From assembly GCF_023238445.1 (NCBI RefSeq), contig NZ_CP096658.1, positions 3,534,001-3,598,000 of the forward strand: a stretch of DNA of 64,000 nt, written 5' to 3'. Position 1 is the stretch's first letter. Every line of letters begins with the position of its first letter. The notes below the pieces were generated by a model. The model did not search any database and was not told the origin of the DNA. It saw nothing but the letters and a program-made list of their open reading frames with translations. This document shows, one piece after another, positions 11,625-23,773 of the stretch. The stretch comes from Halorussus gelatinilyticus (GTDB lineage Archaea > Halobacteriota > Halobacteria > Halobacteriales > Haladaptataceae). A program made the translations under genes and the position numbers.

Positions 11625-13070
11625 GTGACCGACGAGGAGCGTTCGGCGACGAGGCGCGCGTATCTCCGAACCGCCGGGACCGTCGCGGCGGTCGGATCGC
11701 TCGCGGGGTGTGGTCGGACCGACCGCGGGCCGACGACGAGCGCACCGACCGAAACGACCGAAACGACGCCGGGCGAGCGGACTACGACCGACGAACCGAC
11801 CGCGACCGGCGAACCGACCGAGACGGCCACGCCGAGCGAACTGGCCGACCGGCGCGGCTACGAGACCGTCGTGAACGTCGCGACTGCGAGCGTCGATACC
11901 CAGGACGGCGAGGCGATGGAGGCGTTCCTCGAGGAGAAGTCCGGTGACGACACGCTGTTCTACTTCCCGTCGGGGCGCTACCGCCTCGCGGAGTGGCGCG
12001 CGACGGACTACCGGAACCTCGGCATCGTCGGCGACGACGCGGTGCTCGCCGCGCCCAGCGACGCGACCTACTGGCTGAAGTGGGCCAGGCTGGACGACCT
12101 GCTCTTCGAGGGGTTCACCATCGACTGCCGTGGCAAGGGCGTCGCGCCGATCGCCCGTGTCGGAGTCGGGGGCGGGACGAGCGTGGTCCGGAACGTCGTC
12201 GTCCGCGGGCACCGCCACGTGCCCCGAAACGGGTTCGAGATAGAAGTGACCGACCCGGACGGCGAGTTGACCTTCGAGAACGTCGCGCTCCCCGACGGCT
12301 CGACCACCGGCGACGCGATGTTCGTCTTCCCCGCGAGCACCGGGACGCTGACCTTCCGGAACTGCCGCATCGAGGACTGGCACGAGGGTCTCTACAGCGC
12401 GTACCACTCCGGCCCGCTCCGGATTCTGGGCGGCTACTACGCCAACAACGGCATCGAGCAGGTCCGGGTCGGCGGCGGGACCGCGGGCGCGCTCGTGCGC
12501 GGCGCGACCGTGCGCGTAGACGACCCGAGGCGGCCGAACCACAAGCCGAACATGCGGGGCATCTGGGCCGAAGAAGGCGCGAGCGCCCGCATCGAGAACT
12601 GCGACATCGCCATCACCGACCTGACCGGGACCTACAGTTCGGGCGGCATCGTCGTCGGCACGCAGTTCGGCGAGGTGACGATAGCGAACACGGACATCCG
12701 AATCGACGCCGACACCTACGCCGTCAGCCTCCGGGACCCAATCGAGAGCATGGACGGCCAGACCATCCCGAGCATGGACCGTCTCCCGAAGCGCACGCGC
12801 GTCACGGCCCGGAACGTCCGCATCTCCGGCGACGCGACGACCGGCACCGCGGTCCGGACGGCCCGGCGCGACGACTGCCGGTTCGAGCGCGTCTGCATCC
12901 AGCACGGCGGGTCGCGCGACGGCATCGCGGTCGAGGACGCCTCGGGGTGTGCGGTCCGGAACTCGACCATCGACGTGGGCGGCGAGGCCATCCGGACCGA
13001 GGACGCGAACGTGACCACGCGCGGACTCCGGACCAGCGGGTCGTGTCGAATCGAGACGACGATGAACTAA
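11625..13070 (+). CDS. Tat-exported beta-helix lipoprotein
   Basis: 481 residues from GTG 11625. The N-terminus has a twin-arginine stretch (RRAYLRTAG at 10-18), a hydrophobic core and a lipobox SLAGC with Cys29 as the lipid-modified residue. A Thr/Glu-rich linker (about 30-75) resembles haloarchaeal lipoprotein spacers. From about 80 onward, FYFPSGRYRL then repeated N-x-x-(I/V)-x-(G/N)-x turns (FRNCRIEDW, IENCDIAI, VRNSTIDV) fit a right-handed parallel beta-helix of the pectate-lyase type. It may bind or cleave polysaccharide; catalytic residues cannot be assigned. A second protein of the same class lies at 18981. Confidence 0.82.
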   Translation: MTDEERSATRRAYLRTAGTVAAVGSLAGCGRTDRGPTTSAPTETTETTPGERTTTDEPTATGEPTETATPSELADRRGYETVVNVATASVDTQDGEAMEAFLEEKSGDDTLFYFPSGRYRLAEWRATDYRNLGIVGDDAVLAAPSDATYWLKWARLDDLLFEGFTIDCRGKGVAPIARVGVGGGTSVVRNVVVRGHRHVPRNGFEIEVTDPDGELTFENVALPDGSTTGDAMFVFPASTGTLTFRNCRIEDWHEGLYSAYHSGPLRILGGYYANNGIEQVRVGGGTAGALVRGATVRVDDPRRPNHKPNMRGIWAEEGASARIENCDIAITDLTGTYSSGGIVVGTQFGEVTIANTDIRIDADTYAVSLRDPIESMDGQTIPSMDRLPKRTRVTARNVRISGDATTGTAVRTARRDDCRFERVCIQHGGSRDGIAVEDASGCAVRNSTIDVGGEAIRTEDANVTTRGLRTSGSCRIETTMN

Positions 13071-14017: not shown

Positions 14018-15727
14018 TCAGAGGTAGCCGAGGTCTTCGAGTCGCCGTTCGACCGAGCCGTCGTCGCCCGCAGCGCGGTCGGTCCCGAACGGAACGTCGC
14101 CGTAGTCCCTGCGCGAAACGGAGTCGGCGAGCAGGTCCTCGGGGACCTCGCCGGTCATCCGCGCGGGCACGTCGAGTCCCGCGGCGGCCATCGCGATGGG
14201 GGCCACGTCGGTCAGCGAGAGCGCGCCGGGCCGCGCACCGTCGGCGTCGAGCGCGGGGTCGGCGTCGGGAGCCTCGAAGCCCGCGTCGTCGGCGAACGCC
14301 GGGCCGTCGGCGAGAAACACGCCGTCGCGCTGGTGGTCGTGGGTCTCGGTCGGGACGAACCGCTGGCCGATGAGGTTCGTACTGAGCGTGTGGTTCATGT
14401 CGGCGGGCATGAAGAGGACGTCGCAGGCCTGCTCGGTGTACGGCCCGTCGTAGACCTCCTCGCGCCGCCGGACCCACTCGAACACCGGGTCGCCGTCGGG
14501 CGTCCGCAGGGTCGAGAGCAGGTCGATGAGGTCGTCACGGACGCCCTCGTACTCCTCGGGCGTGACCACGCCGGACGGTTCCCGGCCAGCCAGATTCACC
14601 CGGACGCCGAGTTCGACGCTCCGGGTGTAGGCCTTCGAGTTCGCCCAATCGACGCCCTCGCTGGCGGCCGACACCGCCTCGTAGGGCAGGACGTCGGTCA
14701 GGAGGTCGCCGACCCCGAGTCTGGTCGCCAGCGAGTAGGCGTCGCCCGGCGTCACCCCGACCGTGCCGAGCGCCGTCGTCGCGGCGGAGACGACCTGTCC
14801 CGTGACCGACGGGCCGCCGTCCGCGCTCGCTCCCGCGGCACCGTCCCCGCCGCTCGCGCCGTCGGCCGCGCCGGTCAGCGTCGCCTTCTCGGTCATCAGA
14901 CTCGGGCCGGACGAGTCGGCGGTCGCCTCGACGAACCCCGCGTCGCGGAGGATTTCGTTGAGGTAGACCGTGTAGCCGTCCACCTCGCCCATTCCGTGGT
15001 CCGAGCAGACGACGACGTTGGCGTCGCCCGCGGCCTCGCGGACCCGACCCAACACTTCGTCGGCGCGCTCGTAGGCCCGCCGGAAGGTCTCGCGGTCGTC
15101 GAAGTTGTGAAACACCGTGTCGGTCTTCTGGACCTGTACGACCGCGACCCGCCAGTCGTACTCCGCGAGGACGTACTCGGCGGCCTCGCCGCGCATCCGA
15201 ATCAGGTCGAGGTAGCTCTCGCGCTTGCGGTCGTGGTCGTCGCTCGTCTCGGCGTCGGCGTAGATGCGGTACTCGCCGTCGATGGCCTCCGACAGCTCGC
15301 TCCGGATGCCCTCCGGGTAGCCCGCGTCCTCCTCGTGGGCGAGATATCCCGGCACGAGGACGCCCGCGACCGGTTCCGCGGGGTGGGTCACGGGCACGTT
15401 CAACACCACCGCGGGTTCGTCCAACGCGGTCAGGTAGTTCCACAGCGCGGGCTGGCGGACCCGGTTTCTCGTGACGAGTTCGTCCTCGTCGGGGTAGCCC
15501 GCGGTGGAGTGGAAGAAGCCGTAGGTGCCGTGGTGGCTCGGGTCGGTCCCGGTGTACATCGAGGGCCACGCGCTCCCGGTCCACGGCGGAAAGGTCGATT
15601 CGAGGGGTGCCTCGACGCCCTCGTTCCGGAGTCGCTCGAACTCGGGGAGCGACGACTCGAACTCGTCGAGGTATCTGAAGTCCAGCGCGTCGAAGCCGAC
15701 GACGACGGTGTTGTGTTTGCTCGACAT
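14018..15727 (-). CDS. Alkaline-phosphatase-superfamily phosphodiesterase-like protein (paralogue 1)
   Basis: 569 residues of the type I phosphodiesterase/nucleotide pyrophosphatase branch. VVVGFDALD near residue 8 supplies the first metal Asp (D13). FPPWTGSAWPSMYTG aligns with the NPP nucleophile loop, giving Thr50 as nucleophile. KTDTVFHNF near 200 and VVCSDHGMG near 235 supply further metal ligands. No signal peptide or membrane segment, so it is predicted cytoplasmic. Family members hydrolyse or transfer phospho-groups. Two paralogues at 17101 and 35978 keep the same nucleophile motif. The promoter region carries only a weak AACAATA variant of the shared motif (about 15785). An Ala/Gly-rich insertion (about 270-300) is unique to this copy. 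Confidence 0.85.
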   Translation of the reverse strand: MSSKHNTVVVGFDALDFRYLDEFESSLPEFERLRNEGVEAPLESTFPPWTGSAWPSMYTGTDPSHHGTYGFFHSTAGYPDEDELVTRNRVRQPALWNYLTALDEPAVVLNVPVTHPAEPVAGVLVPGYLAHEEDAGYPEGIRSELSEAIDGEYRIYADAETSDDHDRKRESYLDLIRMRGEAAEYVLAEYDWRVAVVQVQKTDTVFHNFDDRETFRRAYERADEVLGRVREAAGDANVVVCSDHGMGEVDGYTVYLNEILRDAGFVEATADSSGPSLMTEKATLTGAADGASGGDGAAGASADGGPSVTGQVVSAATTALGTVGVTPGDAYSLATRLGVGDLLTDVLPYEAVSAASEGVDWANSKAYTRSVELGVRVNLAGREPSGVVTPEEYEGVRDDLIDLLSTLRTPDGDPVFEWVRRREEVYDGPYTEQACDVLFMPADMNHTLSTNLIGQRFVPTETHDHQRDGVFLADGPAFADDAGFEAPDADPALDADGARPGALSLTDVAPIAMAAAGLDVPARMTGEVPEDLLADSVSRRDYGDVPFGTDRAAGDDGSVERRLEDLGYL

Positions 15728-17100: not shown

Positions 17101-18741
17101 TTATTCGAGATAGCCGAGATCCGCGAGTCGCGCTTCGACGTCTCCGTCGTCGGTCGCTTCCTGTTCGCCCGCGTCGAGCGCGGGGTACGATTCGGTTCCC
17201 GCCGACCGCACCGCCGGGAGGACCGACCCGTCCATCCGGTCGGCCGCGGGAACCCCCATCGTCGCCAGAATCGTCGGTGCCACGTCGAAGAGGTGGGCGT
17301 CCGAGAGGTCGGCGCTCGGCGTCGCGCCCTCGCCCGAAATCGCCACGATACCGTCGCGCTTGTGGTTGTACGGTTCGCTCGGCGGGCCGAACTGTCCGTC
17401 GCCGACCCGCGTCGAGAGGAACTCGTCGAACTCACGCGGGACCGTGATTACGTCGGGCGCTTCCTCGACGTACGGGCCGGAGAAGACCTCGTCGCGCCGA
17501 GCGACCCGCTCGAAGACGGGTTTCCCGTCGGGGGTCTCGACGGCCGACAGCGCATCCACGAGGTCGTCGCAGAGCCGGTCGTACTCGCGTTCCGGAACGA
17601 CGCCCTCGGGTTCGCGACCCGCCAAATTTATCCGGACCCCGAGTTCGATGCGGTCGCGCACGTACGCCTTCGAGTCGGGGAAATCGACCTGCTCGGAGCC
17701 GGCGCGGGCCACGTCGGTCGGGACGTGACGGGCCGCGAACTCCGCGAGACCCACCGCGTCGAGCGCGTTGTAGACGCGCTGGCTTGTGACGCCCGCGCTG
17801 GCGAGACCTGTCACCGCGCGCTCGGCGAGGCTCGGCCGGTCGCTCCCGTCGGCGGCTTTCCTCCCCTCTTTGCCGTCCTGAAGTTGGTTGTCCGCGATGG
17901 TGGACCACGTGGGCATCCCCTGGCCCTCGGTGGTCGTCTCGACCAGTCCCCGCTCGCGGAGGTACTCGTTCGGCCGGAACTCGTGGCCGGTGTACTCGCC
18001 CATCCCGTGGTCGCTGGCGACGATTACGGTGTCGGGGTCGCAGGCGTCCAGAATCTCGCCGACCTGTTCGTCCACCGCCTCGTAGACGGTCCGGACCGTC
18101 TCGTCGTCGCCGGGGAACTCGTGGAACACGGTGTCGGTCTGCTGGAACTGCACGAAGCCGAACTCGGGGTCGAACCGCGAGGCGAGGTAGCGAAACGCCT
18201 CGCCGCGCATCTCGATCAGTTGCTCGTACCACGCGACTTTCTCGCTTCCCTCGGCGTCTCGGGGGGCGTACACGCGGTAGTCGCCGATTTCGTCTCGAAT
18301 CTCGTCTAGCAGTCCGTCGGGGTGACAGTCGGGGTCCTCCGGGGCGGTGTAACCGGGCACTATCGCGCCGTCGATTTCGCCGGGCGGGTGCGTGACCGGA
18401 GCGTTCACCACGACGCTCGACTTGCCGTGGTAGTCCAGCAGGTCCCAGAGGGTCCGCTCTCGGACGTGGGTCGCGTTCACCACGTCCCAGTCGTAGCCGT
18501 CGAAGGTCAGAAACCCGAACACGCCGTGCTTGCCGGGATTGACGCCGGTGTACAGCGAGGGCCACGCGCTCGGAGTCCACGGCGGAATCTGGGACTCCAG
18601 CGGCCCGGCCGCCCCCGAGTCGAAGACCGACGCCAGATTGGGGAGCGCGCCGGACTCGAACAGCGGGTCGAGGACCGGCCGACACCCCGCGTCCAATCCG
18701 ACGAGGAGAGTCTCCATGTTCGTCTGCGGGCGGTCAGCCAT
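17101..18741 (-). CDS. Alkaline-phosphatase-superfamily phosphodiesterase-like protein (paralogue 2)
   Basis: 546 residues. LLVGLDAGC (D17 as first metal ligand), then IPPWTPSAWPSLYTG with Thr56 in the nucleophile position, QTDTVFHEF and VASDHGMG (metal ligands). No signal peptide. ATG 18741 is preferred because TAACAAAG lies 26 nt upstream, fitting a leaderless transcript; ATG 18717 is the alternative. First gene of a two-gene operon with the FemAB-like gene. The partnership of an AP-type enzyme with a FemAB-like enzyme suggests sequential modification of one surface polymer (inference). Confidence 0.85.
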   Translation of the reverse strand: MADRPQTNMETLLVGLDAGCRPVLDPLFESGALPNLASVFDSGAAGPLESQIPPWTPSAWPSLYTGVNPGKHGVFGFLTFDGYDWDVVNATHVRERTLWDLLDYHGKSSVVVNAPVTHPPGEIDGAIVPGYTAPEDPDCHPDGLLDEIRDEIGDYRVYAPRDAEGSEKVAWYEQLIEMRGEAFRYLASRFDPEFGFVQFQQTDTVFHEFPGDDETVRTVYEAVDEQVGEILDACDPDTVIVASDHGMGEYTGHEFRPNEYLRERGLVETTTEGQGMPTWSTIADNQLQDGKEGRKAADGSDRPSLAERAVTGLASAGVTSQRVYNALDAVGLAEFAARHVPTDVARAGSEQVDFPDSKAYVRDRIELGVRINLAGREPEGVVPEREYDRLCDDLVDALSAVETPDGKPVFERVARRDEVFSGPYVEEAPDVITVPREFDEFLSTRVGDGQFGPPSEPYNHKRDGIVAISGEGATPSADLSDAHLFDVAPTILATMGVPAADRMDGSVLPAVRSAGTESYPALDAGEQEATDDGDVEARLADLGYLE

Positions 18742-18776: not shown

Positions 18777-18923
18777 GCGCCGTCTGTCACCGCGAAGATA
18801 CGTCCTACGCCGCGATTGCCCGGTTAACGCGCCATTACTCTGGGGAAATCGGGTGTTTCCGGAATTTCGGACCGTTCCGTCCCGACCGTTTCACACCCAG
18901 CCATAACACTTAAAACAGTAATG

Positions 18924-18942
18924 TAGCATTGAACCTAAGTCG
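18924..18942 (+). promoter_or_regulatory. Conserved 19-nt leader element, copy A
   Basis: TAGCATTGAACCTAAGTCG, identical to 21223-21241. Both copies follow an ACTTAAA box by about the same distance and both end exactly 38 nt before an ATGGCACGCGACG start. It lies around the predicted transcription start or in the 5' leader. Confidence 0.65.
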
Positions 18943-18980
18943 ATAGCTTTATGAATGACTGGTTTCGCATTGAGAAATAC

Positions 18981-20531
18981 ATGGCACGCGACGATACGGC
19001 ACGCGACCGCAGTTCGGACGAATCACTACTCGACCGCCGCTCGTACCTGAAGATGGCGGGTGCTGCAGCGGCGACGGTCGGGGCGGCAGGCGTCTCGGCG
19101 AACGCCGCCCAGGGCGCGGAGTACGACACCATCAAGGTCCCCGCGAACACCCGGAAGGTCATCAAGGTGCGGGCGGGCGAGACGTTCGAGAACAAGCTTA
19201 TCGACATCACGGCCGACGGCGCGCACGTGAAGCTCCTGACCTACGGTAGCGGTTGGACGGTCCGGAACGTCGGCGTCAAGGGTGAGAACAACGACCGGGA
19301 CGGAACCTACGGCACGTTCTACCTCCGCTGTACCGAGGAGGGCGAGGCGCTGGCCGAGAACATCTACCTGGGCGACGGCGCGGCCGACCGCTGTGGTCAC
19401 GCCGCGGTCTCCGACTGGGACAATCACGGGACGGTCACGATTCGGAACATCAACGTCACCGGCTGGTCGGCCGACGGCATGTACATGTCCCACTCGGGCG
19501 TCTCCCAGAGTCACGGCATGGGCGCGACACAGGTCGAGAACGCCTACCTGAAGAACAACAACATCGAGAACTGTCGGCTCGGTGCGCCCGGTTGTTACAT
19601 CAAGGACAGCGTCATCCACGTCGAGAATCAGGACGTCGTCTCGACCAACGAGTCGGGACAGGTCAACGCTCGCGGCCTCTGGTTCAAGGAGCAGTCCGGA
19701 ATCAAGGCCATCAACTGCGACATCTCGGTCCAAGGCTCCCACGCCGTGCTCGCCAGCGACGGCGGGTCGGGTACGCTGGAGAACTGCCGAGTCGAAGGTC
19801 CCGTCACGGGACCGGTCGAACAGGTCAACGTCTCGGGCAACCCCGACGTCACGCCGCCCGCGAGCGTTCCGATGTCGGCCGAGGAGGCCGCCTCGGGCGA
19901 GATCGACTCGTCGGAGAACACCTCTTCGCCCGCGAACGAGACGACGACCGGCGACGAGACGACCACCGACGACGGGTCCGCCGCCCAACCCGCGGGCACC
20001 CTCTTCGAGCTGGTCCCCGACGAGAACGCCTCCAGCGTCAAGTACGAGTTCACCGTCGAGGGGAGCGTCCGCGGCCGCACGACGGCGGCCGACGGCGGAC
20101 ACACAGCGGAAGCGGCCGACAGCGTGACCGACAACGGCGACGGCACGGTGACGGTCTCCGGCGTCGCGGGCAACGGCTACGGCGACGCCTTCTACGTGGA
20201 CGGCGCGATTACCGCGGTGAATCTGGACGAGAGCGTCTGGACGCTCCACCTCGGCGGAAACGAAGTCGCCGTGGACGACCTCGTCCTCCCGAACAAGCTG
20301 ATCATCGACGGCGGCAACCGCCCGCGGCAGGCGGCCGACTACACCTTCGAGGTCAGCGGCGCGGCCCGCAAGAGTACCGAACTCGGCTCGATTCAGAAGA
20401 ACGACAGCGTTTCGAGCGGCGAGATAACCGGGTCGGTGTTCGGCGGTAAGGACGGCTACCGCTTCTCGGGCGAGATCACCGGCTTCAGCCTCGACGGTCC
20501 CGCCAGCGTGCAGGTCGAAGACGGGTCCTGA
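18981..20531 (+). CDS. Tat-exported beta-helix protein with tandem haloarchaeal C-terminal domains
   Basis: 516 residues from ATG 18981, chosen because the duplicated copy at 21280 has the same start and an upstream stop. Twin-arginine signal: LLDRRSYLKMAGAAAATVGA (about 20-39) with cleavage near residue 45. A beta-helix core follows (about 50-290) with rungs such as VRNVGVKG, ENIYLGDGAADRCGHA, IRNINVTGWSADGMY and IENCRLGAPGCYI. A Thr/Ser-rich linker leads to two similar C-terminal domains (YEFTVEGSVR... and YTFEVSGAAR..., each ending in a G-F/Y strand and VDG), a domain I associate with haloarchaeal secreted proteins. A CGAGCG-ccga-CGCTCG hairpin follows the stop. Probably binds or processes extracellular polysaccharide. 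Confidence 0.82.
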   Translation: MARDDTARDRSSDESLLDRRSYLKMAGAAAATVGAAGVSANAAQGAEYDTIKVPANTRKVIKVRAGETFENKLIDITADGAHVKLLTYGSGWTVRNVGVKGENNDRDGTYGTFYLRCTEEGEALAENIYLGDGAADRCGHAAVSDWDNHGTVTIRNINVTGWSADGMYMSHSGVSQSHGMGATQVENAYLKNNNIENCRLGAPGCYIKDSVIHVENQDVVSTNESGQVNARGLWFKEQSGIKAINCDISVQGSHAVLASDGGSGTLENCRVEGPVTGPVEQVNVSGNPDVTPPASVPMSAEEAASGEIDSSENTSSPANETTTGDETTTDDGSAAQPAGTLFELVPDENASSVKYEFTVEGSVRGRTTAADGGHTAEAADSVTDNGDGTVTVSGVAGNGYGDAFYVDGAITAVNLDESVWTLHLGGNEVAVDDLVLPNKLIIDGGNRPRQAADYTFEVSGAARKSTELGSIQKNDSVSSGEITGSVFGGKDGYRFSGEITGFSLDGPASVQVEDGS

Positions 20532-21279
20532 GCCGAGCGCCGACGCTCGCTCGGGGTCGCTCTCTCGGTCTCTCGGAGTCCTCCGCGGCTGATTCCCCCT
20601 CGGTAGCCCTCGAATGCGGTCCCTCGGTTTCCGACTCGGGACTTCCGTGGTCCCATCGTACGGTCCCCGCCGGTCTCCGGTAGCCCTCCCGCGGTCCCCG
20701 CTACGACTCCCTCGACGACTCCCCCGATAGCTCCTCCGTAGGTCCTCGCCACGACTCCCCTCCGCGACTCCCGCGGTCCCCACGACTCTCCGCGGTTCAC
20801 CTCCCCAGTTCATCTCCGCAGTTCCCCTCCGCGGCTCCCCTTCTCGCTCGTCGCGGACCGCATCTTCTCTCGGTGAGTCCGGGGTTTCCAGTCCGACTTC
20901 CGAACTCCTCTCGTCCGCTCTCGCTCGGTTCGACGTTCAGCTTTTCCCAGTTATCGAGAGCGACCGACCGGCGGACCGATGGCCGACCTCGGCTACCGAC
21001 CAGTTTCGACTATCGGCCAGCTCCGACTATCTGCCGGTCTCGACTATCGCCGGAGCGACCGTTTCGTTCCGTTCCGCAAACCGACGGGCCGGAAACGCCC
21101 AGTTACGGACCGGTTTCGGCGAGGAACGACTTATAGTAGGTGCGCGCGTCGGTCCGAACGGCGGCGTGTCGGCGGGAGAGGGCGGGCCCGACCGTTCGGC
21201 CATTATACTTAAATCGGCAAGCTAGCATTGAACCTAAGTCGGTACCTTTTTCAAGTGGTAATGATGCATTGAAGAGTGC
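20532..21279. other. Long intergenic region, pyrimidine-rich on the plus strand
   Basis: No gene is supported. From about 20570 to 20960 the plus strand is strongly C/T-rich with irregular repeats of CGACTCCC, GCGGTCCCC and CTCCGCGG. From 20985 to 21060 CGACTATC recurs three times. The last 80 nt hold a duplicated promoter and leader for the remnant gene at 21280. A minus-strand frame here is Arg/Gly-rich and not credible. Confidence 0.5.
21223..21241 (+). promoter_or_regulatory. Conserved 19-nt leader element, copy B
   Basis: Exact copy of 18924-18942, 38 nt before the remnant gene start at 21280. It is preceded by ATACTTAAA as in copy A. Confidence 0.65.
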
Positions 21280-21543
21280 ATGGCACGCGACGTTACGGCA
21301 CGCGACTCGAAATCCGAAACGGCCCTCCTCGACCGTCGTTCGGCCCGCTGGCACGCGGGGCCGGCCGCGACGGCCGCCGGGCGCGGGACTGCGGCCTCGT
21401 CCGAACCGAACTCCGCTGGCACGCCCTCCACCGGCACGATGCCCTCCGCTGGCGCGATACCCTCCGGTGCGACCCTCTTCACGGGCGAATCGACCCCCTC
21501 CACTCGCGCCGCGTCCGGCGCGGAGGTGCAGAATGGCTCCTGA
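21280..21543 (+). pseudogene. Truncated duplicate of the beta-helix gene 5' end
   Basis: 87 codons. The first 22 residues (MARDVTARDSKSETALLDRR) match MARDDTARDRSSDESLLDRR of the gene at 18981. The Tat motif is then lost (RRSARWHAG instead of RRSYLKMAG) and the rest is a low-complexity run of A, S, T, G and P with no beta-helix. The promoter, leader element and leader length are conserved with the parent. It could be a decayed duplicate or a small protein still using the parental promoter. The stop overlaps the start of the next gene by 11 nt. Confidence 0.55.
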
Positions 21544-21760
21544 GAACGCCCACTCCGAGACGGACGGGTGGCAGGAAGTCCCCCGCGACCCCGAACCCGA
21601 CGACCTCGGCTACGAACTGGACGACTGGGAAGTCATCCGCGCGAAGAAGAACGACCGGGGTCACCTGATGTTCCTCCCCGAAGAAGAAGAGATGCTCCGC
21701 GACGAAGCCTTCATCGTCGCGGACGCTCAGTCGGTCTGCGACGTCGTGGACCGGATTTAG
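21533..21760 (+). CDS. Small acidic conserved-type protein of unknown function
   Basis: 75 residues, MAPENAHSETDGWQEVPRDP then DDLGYELDDWEVIRAKKNDR and HLMFLPEEEEMLRDEAFIVA. Codon use and acidity match real haloarchaeal genes, unlike the longer extension upstream of ATG 21533. No known domain recognised; the Trp/Val-rich core suggests a small folded cytoplasmic protein. It starts inside the remnant gene and its stop overlaps the convergent glmM stop by 4 bp. Confidence 0.7.
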   Translation: MAPENAHSETDGWQEVPRDPEPDDLGYELDDWEVIRAKKNDRGHLMFLPEEEEMLRDEAFIVADAQSVCDVVDRI

Positions 21761-23124: not shown

Positions 23125-23685
23125 CTAGTTCTCCTGTCCGTTGACGCGATGTATCTCGGGCGGGGTGCCGACGTTGCCGCCGCGCCTGTACCTGAAGTAG
23201 TGGACGATAGCCGAGACGCCGAACACCACGAGAATGAGCGTCGCCAACACGAGTCCGGGAATCATGCCGAACGGCGGCACGTCGAGCCAGACCGCCGCGA
23301 CCATCAGGGAACTCGCACCGACGAGTCCGAGGTAGTACCGGTCCCACGGGAACTCCTCGCGGGACACGTCGCCCAGATAGATGTCGAGGTCCGAAGCCCG
23401 GTCGCCGAGTCGGACGACTCCCTCGTCGCGGTCGTACTCCACGATGTCCGCCTCGTCGAGTTTCGGCAGGTGAGTCTGGTAGAGGGAGATGTACACGCGC
23501 TTGCGCTGTTCGGTCGAGAGCGCCGCGGGAGTCGTCTCGTTCTCCCACGCCGCGACCTGTTCGGTCAGATCCGACAGTTCGGTCTCGCCGCCCTCCTGTC
23601 GGAGGTAGTACAGCGCGTACCGACGTCGGGGACTCTTCAGAACCTCGAAGACCTCGTCCTGGGAGAGCTCGTCAGCGCGAGACAT
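23125..23685 (-). CDS. Winged-helix membrane protein (DUF7344 type)
   Basis: 186 residues from ATG 23685. An N-terminal winged-helix domain (about 1-105: LSQDEVFEVLKSPRRRYALY, then ELSDLTEQVAAWENETTP, VYISLYQTHLPKLDEADIVE) is of the DUF7344 type found in haloarchaea. Two transmembrane helices (about 122-138 and 144-166) follow, then a short basic tail. It is likely a membrane-tethered DNA-binding regulator. It is the first gene of an operon with glmM, so it is a candidate regulator of surface-glycan precursor supply. The upstream in-frame GTG at 23736 is rejected because the added residues are not family-like. Confidence 0.75.
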   Translation of the reverse strand: MSRADELSQDEVFEVLKSPRRRYALYYLRQEGGETELSDLTEQVAAWENETTPAALSTEQRKRVYISLYQTHLPKLDEADIVEYDRDEGVVRLGDRASDLDIYLGDVSREEFPWDRYYLGLVGASSLMVAAVWLDVPPFGMIPGLVLATLILVVFGVSAIVHYFRYRRGGNVGTPPEIHRVNGQEN

Positions 23686-23773
23686 ACTCCCCCGGAGGTC
23701 GGCAGGTCGTCGGAGGCGATACGCGCTCGGAGCCACCGGGTCGGGAGGATGTCCGCAGGTGAGACCGCCGCAT
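23672..23773 (-). CDS. Candidate leaderless mini-ORF overlapping the winged-helix gene
   Basis: Thirty-three codons from ATG 23773 (MRRSHLRTSSRPGGSERVSP...), starting 24 nt after TAACAAAG copy 4 and ending in TGA 14 nt inside the next gene. The spacing to the motif matches the leaderless genes. Composition is basic with no homology, so its peptide is probably not the functional product. Confidence 0.35.
   Translation of the reverse strand: MRRSHLRTSSRPGGSERVSPPTTCRPPGEYVSR

Follow-up and report, generated by a model that had tools for sequence, protein, structure and literature searches.

A promoter and start cassette before a shortened beta-helix gene copy in Halorussus gelatinilyticus, and a possible role of the retained frame in translational coupling

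In bacterial leader-peptide and coupling cistrons a short upstream open reading frame (ORF) is translated, and its translation matters more than its peptide. The present analysis concerns a related arrangement in an archaeon. In a 64,000-nt stretch of the Halorussus gelatinilyticus genome (NZ_CP096658.1, positions 3,534,001 to 3,598,000; hereafter the window), a duplicated element of about 100 nt stands before a full-length beta-helix gene (copy 1) and again before a shortened one (copy 2, the mini-ORF), which overlaps a gene for a protein of 75 amino acids (aa). Coupling between overlapping genes was strict in 13 of 14 tested pairs of Haloferax volcanii and Escherichia coli (Huber et al. 2019, PMC6728339). 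Removal of the Shine-Dalgarno (SD) motif reduced coupling in most H. volcanii pairs and did not abolish it (PMC6728339), and in E. coli the last 15 nt of the upstream gene sufficed (PMC10666635). The haloarchaeal promoter consensus consists of a TTWT TATA box, a CGAAA B recognition element (BRE) and a WW -10 element (PMC4983044).

The preferred reading, to which a probability of roughly two in three is given, is that the element is a promoter and start cassette, that the two copies come from an old duplication, and that the second gene was hollowed repeatedly while its frame was kept for coupling to the 75-aa gene. The retained frame of the shortened copy is the interesting part, beyond the selected promoter and start.

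The cassette and its distribution

As a first-pass annotation of the window had described, the noncoding DNA before the two ATG codons (18981 and 21280) shares the motif ACTTAAA (18908-18914 and 21207-21213), ending 9 nt 5' of an identical 19-mer, TAGCATTGAACCTAAGTCG (18924-18942 and 21223-21241), and the distance from 19-mer to ATG is 38 nt in both copies. The coordinates were confirmed. The same annotation held the leader to be more alike than the coding part behind it, and this did not survive counting. The copies match at 41 of the last 60 noncoding nt, 44 of the first 60 coding nt and 30 of the next 60, so that leader identity exceeds coding identity only past the first codons. Over the first 27 coding nt a single base differs, as read off the displayed sequence. 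The parts of the two leaders are as follows.

18906-18980 (+): leader 1, promoter region (noncoding) before the full-length beta-helix gene; matched by profiles R1 and R2 (below), conserved in 13 Halorussus copy-1 leaders and in Haladaptatus (genome G003)
18908-18914 (+): distal TATA-like box ACTTAAA of leader 1; in alignment A1 TAAA is invariant and ACTTAAA nearly so
18926-18933 (+): distal GCATTGAA repeat of leader 1, within the 19-mer, seen in the sequence and the alignments
18948-18956 (+): proximal TATA-like box TTTATGAAT of leader 1, about 29 nt before the ATG; Haladaptatus leaders have CTTAAAT there
18967-18974 (+): proximal GCATTGAG repeat of leader 1, 41 nt past the distal repeat (repeat counts below)
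21205-21279 (+): leader 2, duplicated promoter region of the shortened copy; R1 96.6 bits at 21206-21305, R2 expect value (E) 8.8e-18
21223-21241 (+): second exact 19-mer, containing the distal GCATTGAA at 21225-21232; sequence and genome pattern search
21266-21273 (+): proximal GCATTGAA of leader 2, 41 nt past the distal one; sequence and repeat count

With up to 3 mismatches allowed, the 19-mer has exactly 2 sites in the single-contig 3.67-Mb genome and its reversed-pattern control none. In 28 genomes of the family (Halorussus, Haladaptatus and Halomicrococcus) it has 22 sites, in 14 genomes, and the control again none. The pair is thus not a product of chance. At 19 of the 22 family sites a ATGGCACG start lies 3' of the 19-mer, the exceptions being loci L016, L020 and L022 (L and G numbers are our labels for loci and genomes).

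The complete cassette consists of two 41-nt tandem modules, each a TATA-like box followed after about 18-21 nt by GCATTGAA, and a fixed ATGGCACGCGAC start spanning the first 9 or so codons. The noncoding consensus runs in the order TATA-like CTTAAAT, GTAAT, GCATTGAA, AAATCGGAA (in a BRE-like place), second TATA-like box, GTAAT, GCATTGAA, about 6 nt, ATG. The AT-rich boxes hold fixed positions in 52 aligned leaders and are predicted to be TATA-like, their spacing being taken relative to the ATG; that of the proximal box would be of the leaderless type. In leader 1 the 3' half of the 19-mer, AAGTCG, abuts the proximal box, where a BRE is expected, and alignment A2 has a CGGAA-like consensus 5' of that box, not an exact CGAAA. 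On sequence, the boxes appear compatible with the haloarchaeal promoter consensus.

Two or more ATTGA motifs were found in 50 of 75 leaders, exactly 41 nt apart in 45 of them, where the window average would give 0.014 per leader; these counts exclude L131 and L132 (another family, partial) and the weak secondary matches L125_6426 and L119_6498. The two modules are 60-77% alike in five first-gene leaders of Haladaptatus, where 0-1 of 500 shuffles did as well. The start codons are constrained at the nucleotide level, because GCA is fixed at codon 2 in 75 of 75 cassette genes and at codon 7 in 60 of the 62 that have Ala there, against 3.6% of the 358 Ala codons in seven window genes.

Two profiles were used for the wider search: R1, a sequence-only profile of the whole cassette, and R2, a profile of 52 noncoding leaders only. 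Both were trained on part of the sequences they were scored on, and with that qualification R1 detects the cassette at E 3e-13 or better in every one of the 28 family genomes, and R2 finds 71 sites at E 5.9e-6 or better, also in 28 of 28. In a search of 293 genomes of the order, R1 gave weak or partial matches only outside the family, the best at 2.3e-5. By coordinates, all 71 R2 sites coincide with R1 matches and run into a ATGGCACGCGA start, mostly of beta-helix genes with a twin-arginine translocation (Tat) start; leader and start thus form one unit. An alignment of 27 leaders has 83% mean column identity and constant length save for two 1-nt changes. Two genes of another family, f8 (L131 5748 and L132 5987), have MARDE..VRD starts and a partial match to the proximal-module leader, and may be distant relatives of the cassette.

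The block is not confined to two sites diverging neutrally. The genome holds three full R2 copies, the window pair and a third, diverged cassette at G000:C1:2644878-2644976 (R2 match 2644907-2644977), which precedes a 300-aa beta-helix homologue; a further R1 match, L097, was dropped since it covers the coding start only. In alignments of the copy-2 leader, five of seven genome pairs are 0.91-0.95 identical and the other two 0.79 and 0.83, against 0.74-0.81 with many gaps in the sequence just upstream.

The first-pass annotation had offered a regulatory or an RNA element kept by selection. The first option is supported: throughout the genus both copies have a conserved leader, and its 71 strong copies all precede the same start. 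A structured RNA leader or small RNA would account for the high conservation of the 75 nt or so before the start codon. The consensus fold, however, reaches only -1.77 kcal/mol with 4 pairs, 0 of 4 changed on both sides, and the conserved blocks are the TATA-like boxes and direct repeats, so an RNA element is very improbable. The evidence supports a DNA-level promoter and start cassette of an exported-protein family in the three genera, maintained by selection. Literature searches on this leader, the MARD start peptides, DUF7344, promoters (also those of Halorussus), translational coupling, haloarchaeal beta-helix proteins and small upstream ORFs brought up no description of this cassette among the papers listed.

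The long proteins encoded 3' of the cassette all join the window beta-helix protein in one sequence cluster. Some keep the N-terminus and the C-terminal region and differ in the middle, which matches polysaccharide lyase 14 in L110 (2.2e-13) and glycosyl hydrolase 16 in L106 (1.1e-23). L110, L098, L106 and L107 together show the same leader and N-terminus with other middles (polysaccharide lyase 14, glycosyl hydrolase 16, weak fn3-like) and a C-terminal region common to the beta-helix proteins. This suggests that exported polysaccharide-active proteins may share their regulation.

Copy 1 and the age of the duplication

18981-20531 (+): copy 1 ORF, predicted exported protein of 516 aa with a Tat-type start and a right-handed beta-helix region (PF13229 match)

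The 516-aa form matches PF13229 (Pfam Beta_helix) with E 1.9e-6 and 28.1 bits, above the cut-off of 25.9. Against the Tat model TIGR01409 it scores 14 bits (E 0.049), below the cut-off of 16.7. The motif RRSYLKMAG is visible by eye, and from its sequence copy 1 is likely exported by Tat.

In most Halorussus genomes the syntenic order is a phosphodiesterase gene (-), leader 1 with beta-helix gene 1 (+), leader 2 with beta-helix gene 2 or its remnant (+), the 75-aa gene (+) and a phosphoglucosamine mutase gene (-). In a quick tree of 38 proteins, 13 copy-1 proteins group together and the 4 full-length copy-2 proteins form a second clade, each with 100% support in the Shimodaira-Hasegawa-like approximate likelihood-ratio test (SH-aLRT). 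The copy-1 proteins of G025 and G017 fall elsewhere in this tree, with the third beta-helix gene. Because copy-1 and copy-2 proteins form separate clades, the duplication is older than the radiation of the genus as sampled. On these trees the window copies evidently go back to a beta-helix gene that was duplicated in tandem long ago.

The first-pass annotation had also considered a recent partial duplication. This was rejected by the protein trees and the conserved synteny, the copies occupying the same slots in the genomes compared. Related to it is gene conversion, by which leader 2 would have been made from leader 1. The window 19-mers are identical even at variable CCT positions that differ in most relatives, which is compatible with a local conversion tract. 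Such a tract, however, predicts that the window leaders are closest to each other, and they are 0.92-0.95 identical to close orthologues against 41/60 between copies. Copy-2 leaders also have features of their own in most genomes, e.g. GGTAAT before the proximal GCATTGAA. Taken together, a recent duplication or conversion has next to no credibility.

Three side observations concern the copies. In G011 a copy-1-type gene with leader (L130 10108-10206, +) lies on the strand opposite the mini-ORF and 75-aa gene, an orientation not seen in the other genomes inspected. A distant third beta-helix-like stretch at 12189-12614 (+) of the window has 28% identity to copy 1 over 160 aa, and it lies 5' of a second phosphodiesterase-like gene (14018-15727), itself 40% identical to 17101-18741. 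Between the two copies (20532-21180), CTCCCC and CCGCGG-like runs are abundant on the + strand.

The shortened copy and the overlapping gene

21280-21543 (+): mini-ORF, 87 codons; it opens with the start cassette and about 25 codons from the 5' end of the ancestral beta-helix gene 2, goes on with an unconstrained middle part and stops within the 75-aa gene
21522-21528 (+): SD-like GGAGGTG before the 75-aa gene, seen in the sequence
21533-21760 (+): 75-aa gene (working label down75), which shares 11 nt with the mini-ORF; 51 of 146 genomes of the order have homologues

The first-pass annotation described the second copy as decayed, without its Tat motif and beta-helix. The loss of the beta-helix is borne out, as the 87-aa product matches no Pfam or NCBIfam family and no beta-helix. 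The loss of the Tat motif is partial: the RR of DRRSARWHAG is kept, and the rest of the motif and the hydrophobic stretch are gone. Decay describes the shortening but not the reading frame. Copy 2 is long in 4 of 18 Halorussus genomes (G013 429, G022 521, G023 314 and G027 540 aa) and is a mini-ORF of 52-98 aa in the other 14. Every one of the 18 has the copy-2 stop 11 or 14 nt into the 75-aa gene and in the same phase (phase 1), so that frame and stop-start overlap are kept across 13 different mini-ORF lengths.

A species tree was built from three neighbouring proteins, of which G015 and G025 contributed two each; in it the genomes with an intact copy 2 stand at three places. If hollowing, the reduction to a mini-ORF, is taken as irreversible, the best tree requires 8 events, and 6 remain when weak forks are collapsed toward fewer events. 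Leader 2 has for the most part kept its strength in genomes with a hollowed copy 2: its R2 scores are 46.2-66.7 bits in the 14 hollowed genomes against 57.6-67.9 in the 4 intact ones, with G014, G017 and G020 below 50.

The overlap has two features of termination-reinitiation pairs, a short same-strand overlap (18/18) and an SD motif before the downstream start: by eye, GGAGG precedes the 75-aa gene in 16 of 18 genomes, the others having AAGAGG (G019) and GGGGGG (G025). The association of the 75-aa gene with long genes extends further. At most of 23 inspected loci (L043-L065) a long ORF, several of them beta-helix-like, ends at or near the start of the 75-aa homologue; L055, L057, L058, L063 and L065 have no long-ORF stop close 5' of it. 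Of the 10 Haladaptatus and Halomicrococcus loci whose second gene is intact, all have the homologue immediately 3' of it or at most a few tens of nt away; in L050 and L051 the overlap is 4 nt. The 75-aa protein matches no known family, a Pfam scan of 24 members giving chance-level matches only, and its AlphaFold model is of low confidence (mean predicted local distance difference test score, pLDDT, 54.6).

The following mechanism is proposed. The spacing of the proximal module would suit a transcript with almost no leader, and the distal module may be a second promoter or the operator of a putative regulator. The second beta-helix gene would have headed an operon with the overlapping 75-aa gene, on a single transcript, and would then have been hollowed repeatedly and independently in most Halorussus species. 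Ribosomes would enter at the cassette, cross the mini-ORF and pass translation to the 75-aa gene by termination-reinitiation. As they must cross the frame to feed that gene, selection would maintain the leader, the start and a frame that stays open as far as the overlapping stop, leaving the peptide nearly free. The single transcript, its start sites, the coupling, the regulator and a role of the 75-aa protein are predictions from sequence, as is the persistence of the hollowed copies as translation conduits. The far-reaching form of this proposal falls somewhat short of an even chance. It states that a large exported-protein gene was turned at least 6 times independently, within one genus, into a nearly sequence-free conduit, with promoter, start cassette and frame selected and the peptide not; its sole task would be to bring ribosomes to the small overlapping gene, which is found with beta-helix genes across haloarchaea.

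A different view of the mini-ORF is that it is a functional small peptide, e.g. a regulator or decoy, retaining the N-terminal 25 residues. In codon alignments, the ratio of nonsynonymous to synonymous change (dN/dS) over the first 27 codons is 0.12-0.41 in five of seven pairs, where these codons are more conserved than the rest. It exceeds 1 in the two pairs with G019. Low N-terminal dN need not mean peptide function, because the N-terminal codons of intact genes are also synonymously constrained. Past codon 27 the dN/dS values are 1.04, 1.16, 0.88, 1.14, 0.69, 1.42 and 0.62; the remainder thus drifts, over lengths of 52-98 aa, and a selected peptide is unlikely.

Several observations weigh against the proposed cassette, hollowing and coupling. 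First, the likeness of the two modules is weak within single Halorussus leaders: window leader 1 is matched by 183 of 500 shuffles, and the best module register is nearly always the same among Halorussus leaders though the likeness is often not above shuffles. Second, with changes allowed in both directions, parsimony needs only 3 steps between the intact and the hollowed state, so the count of 6-8 hollowings rests on irreversibility. Third, of the 14 mini-ORF regions, 10 are also open in one of the other forward frames and 7 in the other; as GC-rich DNA is often open by chance, openness alone is a weak argument and phase the stronger one. Fourth, single gap lengths in the mini-ORF nucleotide alignments are not all multiples of three, with net phase always kept. 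Fifth, leader 1 persists where copy 1 is hollowed and has no known partner gene; its R2 scores there are 39.2 (G014), 36.2 (G019) and 61.8 bits (G020) against 50.8-68.2 in 15 genomes with copy 1 above 290 aa, a comparison of three cases, too few, in which R2 training included the G020 leader 1 and not those of G014 or G019. Sixth, overlaps in H. volcanii are mostly of -4, -1 and -8 nt with longer ones rare (PMC10666635), and those described here are 11 and 14 nt.

The third of these points also favours plain promoter retention, in which leader 2 is kept for no purpose but to start transcription of the 75-aa gene, the mini-ORF being a passive relic with a frame still open through recent erosion and GC-richness. 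The dN/dS near 1 in the middle of the mini-ORF fits a relic as well. Passive erosion does not readily give one phase and an overlapping stop in every one of the 18 genomes despite 13 different mini-ORF lengths; with at least 6 independent erosions the chance of this phase is (1/3)^6, about 0.0014 (hand calculation). Nor does it call for the GGAGG seen in 16 of 18. Promoter retention is improbable on balance.

Beyond the 75-aa gene, at 23128-23736 (-), a gene for a DUF7344 winged-helix-like protein (PF24035, 1.9e-33) adjoins the phosphoglucosamine mutase gene. Its best match is at least 77% identical in 17 of 18 Halorussus genomes and 43% in G025. It was considered as a regulator of the cassette. 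Because each Halorussus genome has 19-51 members of this family, nothing ties this neighbour to the leader, and it remains a lead.

Significance and comparison with known systems

If the proposed coupling is correct, the Halorussus genomes offer a natural series showing what selection needs in a coupled operon with a dispensable upstream protein, namely promoter, start and open frame but not peptide, and 18 natural test constructs for archaeal termination-reinitiation. The cassette would define a promoter common to exported polysaccharide-active proteins of one haloarchaeal family, and attention would be drawn to an uncharacterised 75-aa protein family 3' of beta-helix genes in several haloarchaeal families. 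It would also be a caution that short "decayed" ORFs before conserved genes may function as frames.

Three known systems come close. The cassette resembles the haloarchaeal basal promoter in its predicted parts, a TATA-like CTTAAAT or TTTATGAAT about 29 nt before the ATG with a CGGAA-like sequence just 5' and leaderless-type spacing. It differs in being doubled at 41 nt, in the fixed GCATTGAA past each box and in first codons constrained at the nucleotide level. As in bacterial leader-peptide cistrons, translation of the mini-ORF would outweigh its peptide; the mini-ORF, however, is archaeal and has arisen several times over out of a large gene for an exported protein. In gene arrangement the likeness is to the termination-reinitiation pairs that Huber et al. 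described in Haloferax volcanii (2019, PMC6728339; 2023, PMC10666635), in which the upstream stop likewise overlaps a same-strand downstream start and the SD motif lies within the upstream ORF; the Haladaptatus loci show the canonical 4-nt overlap as well. The Halorussus overlap is instead 11 or 14 nt, and its upstream gene has been repeatedly hollowed with start, frame and overlap retained; coupling was measured in Haloferax and is here predicted from sequence.

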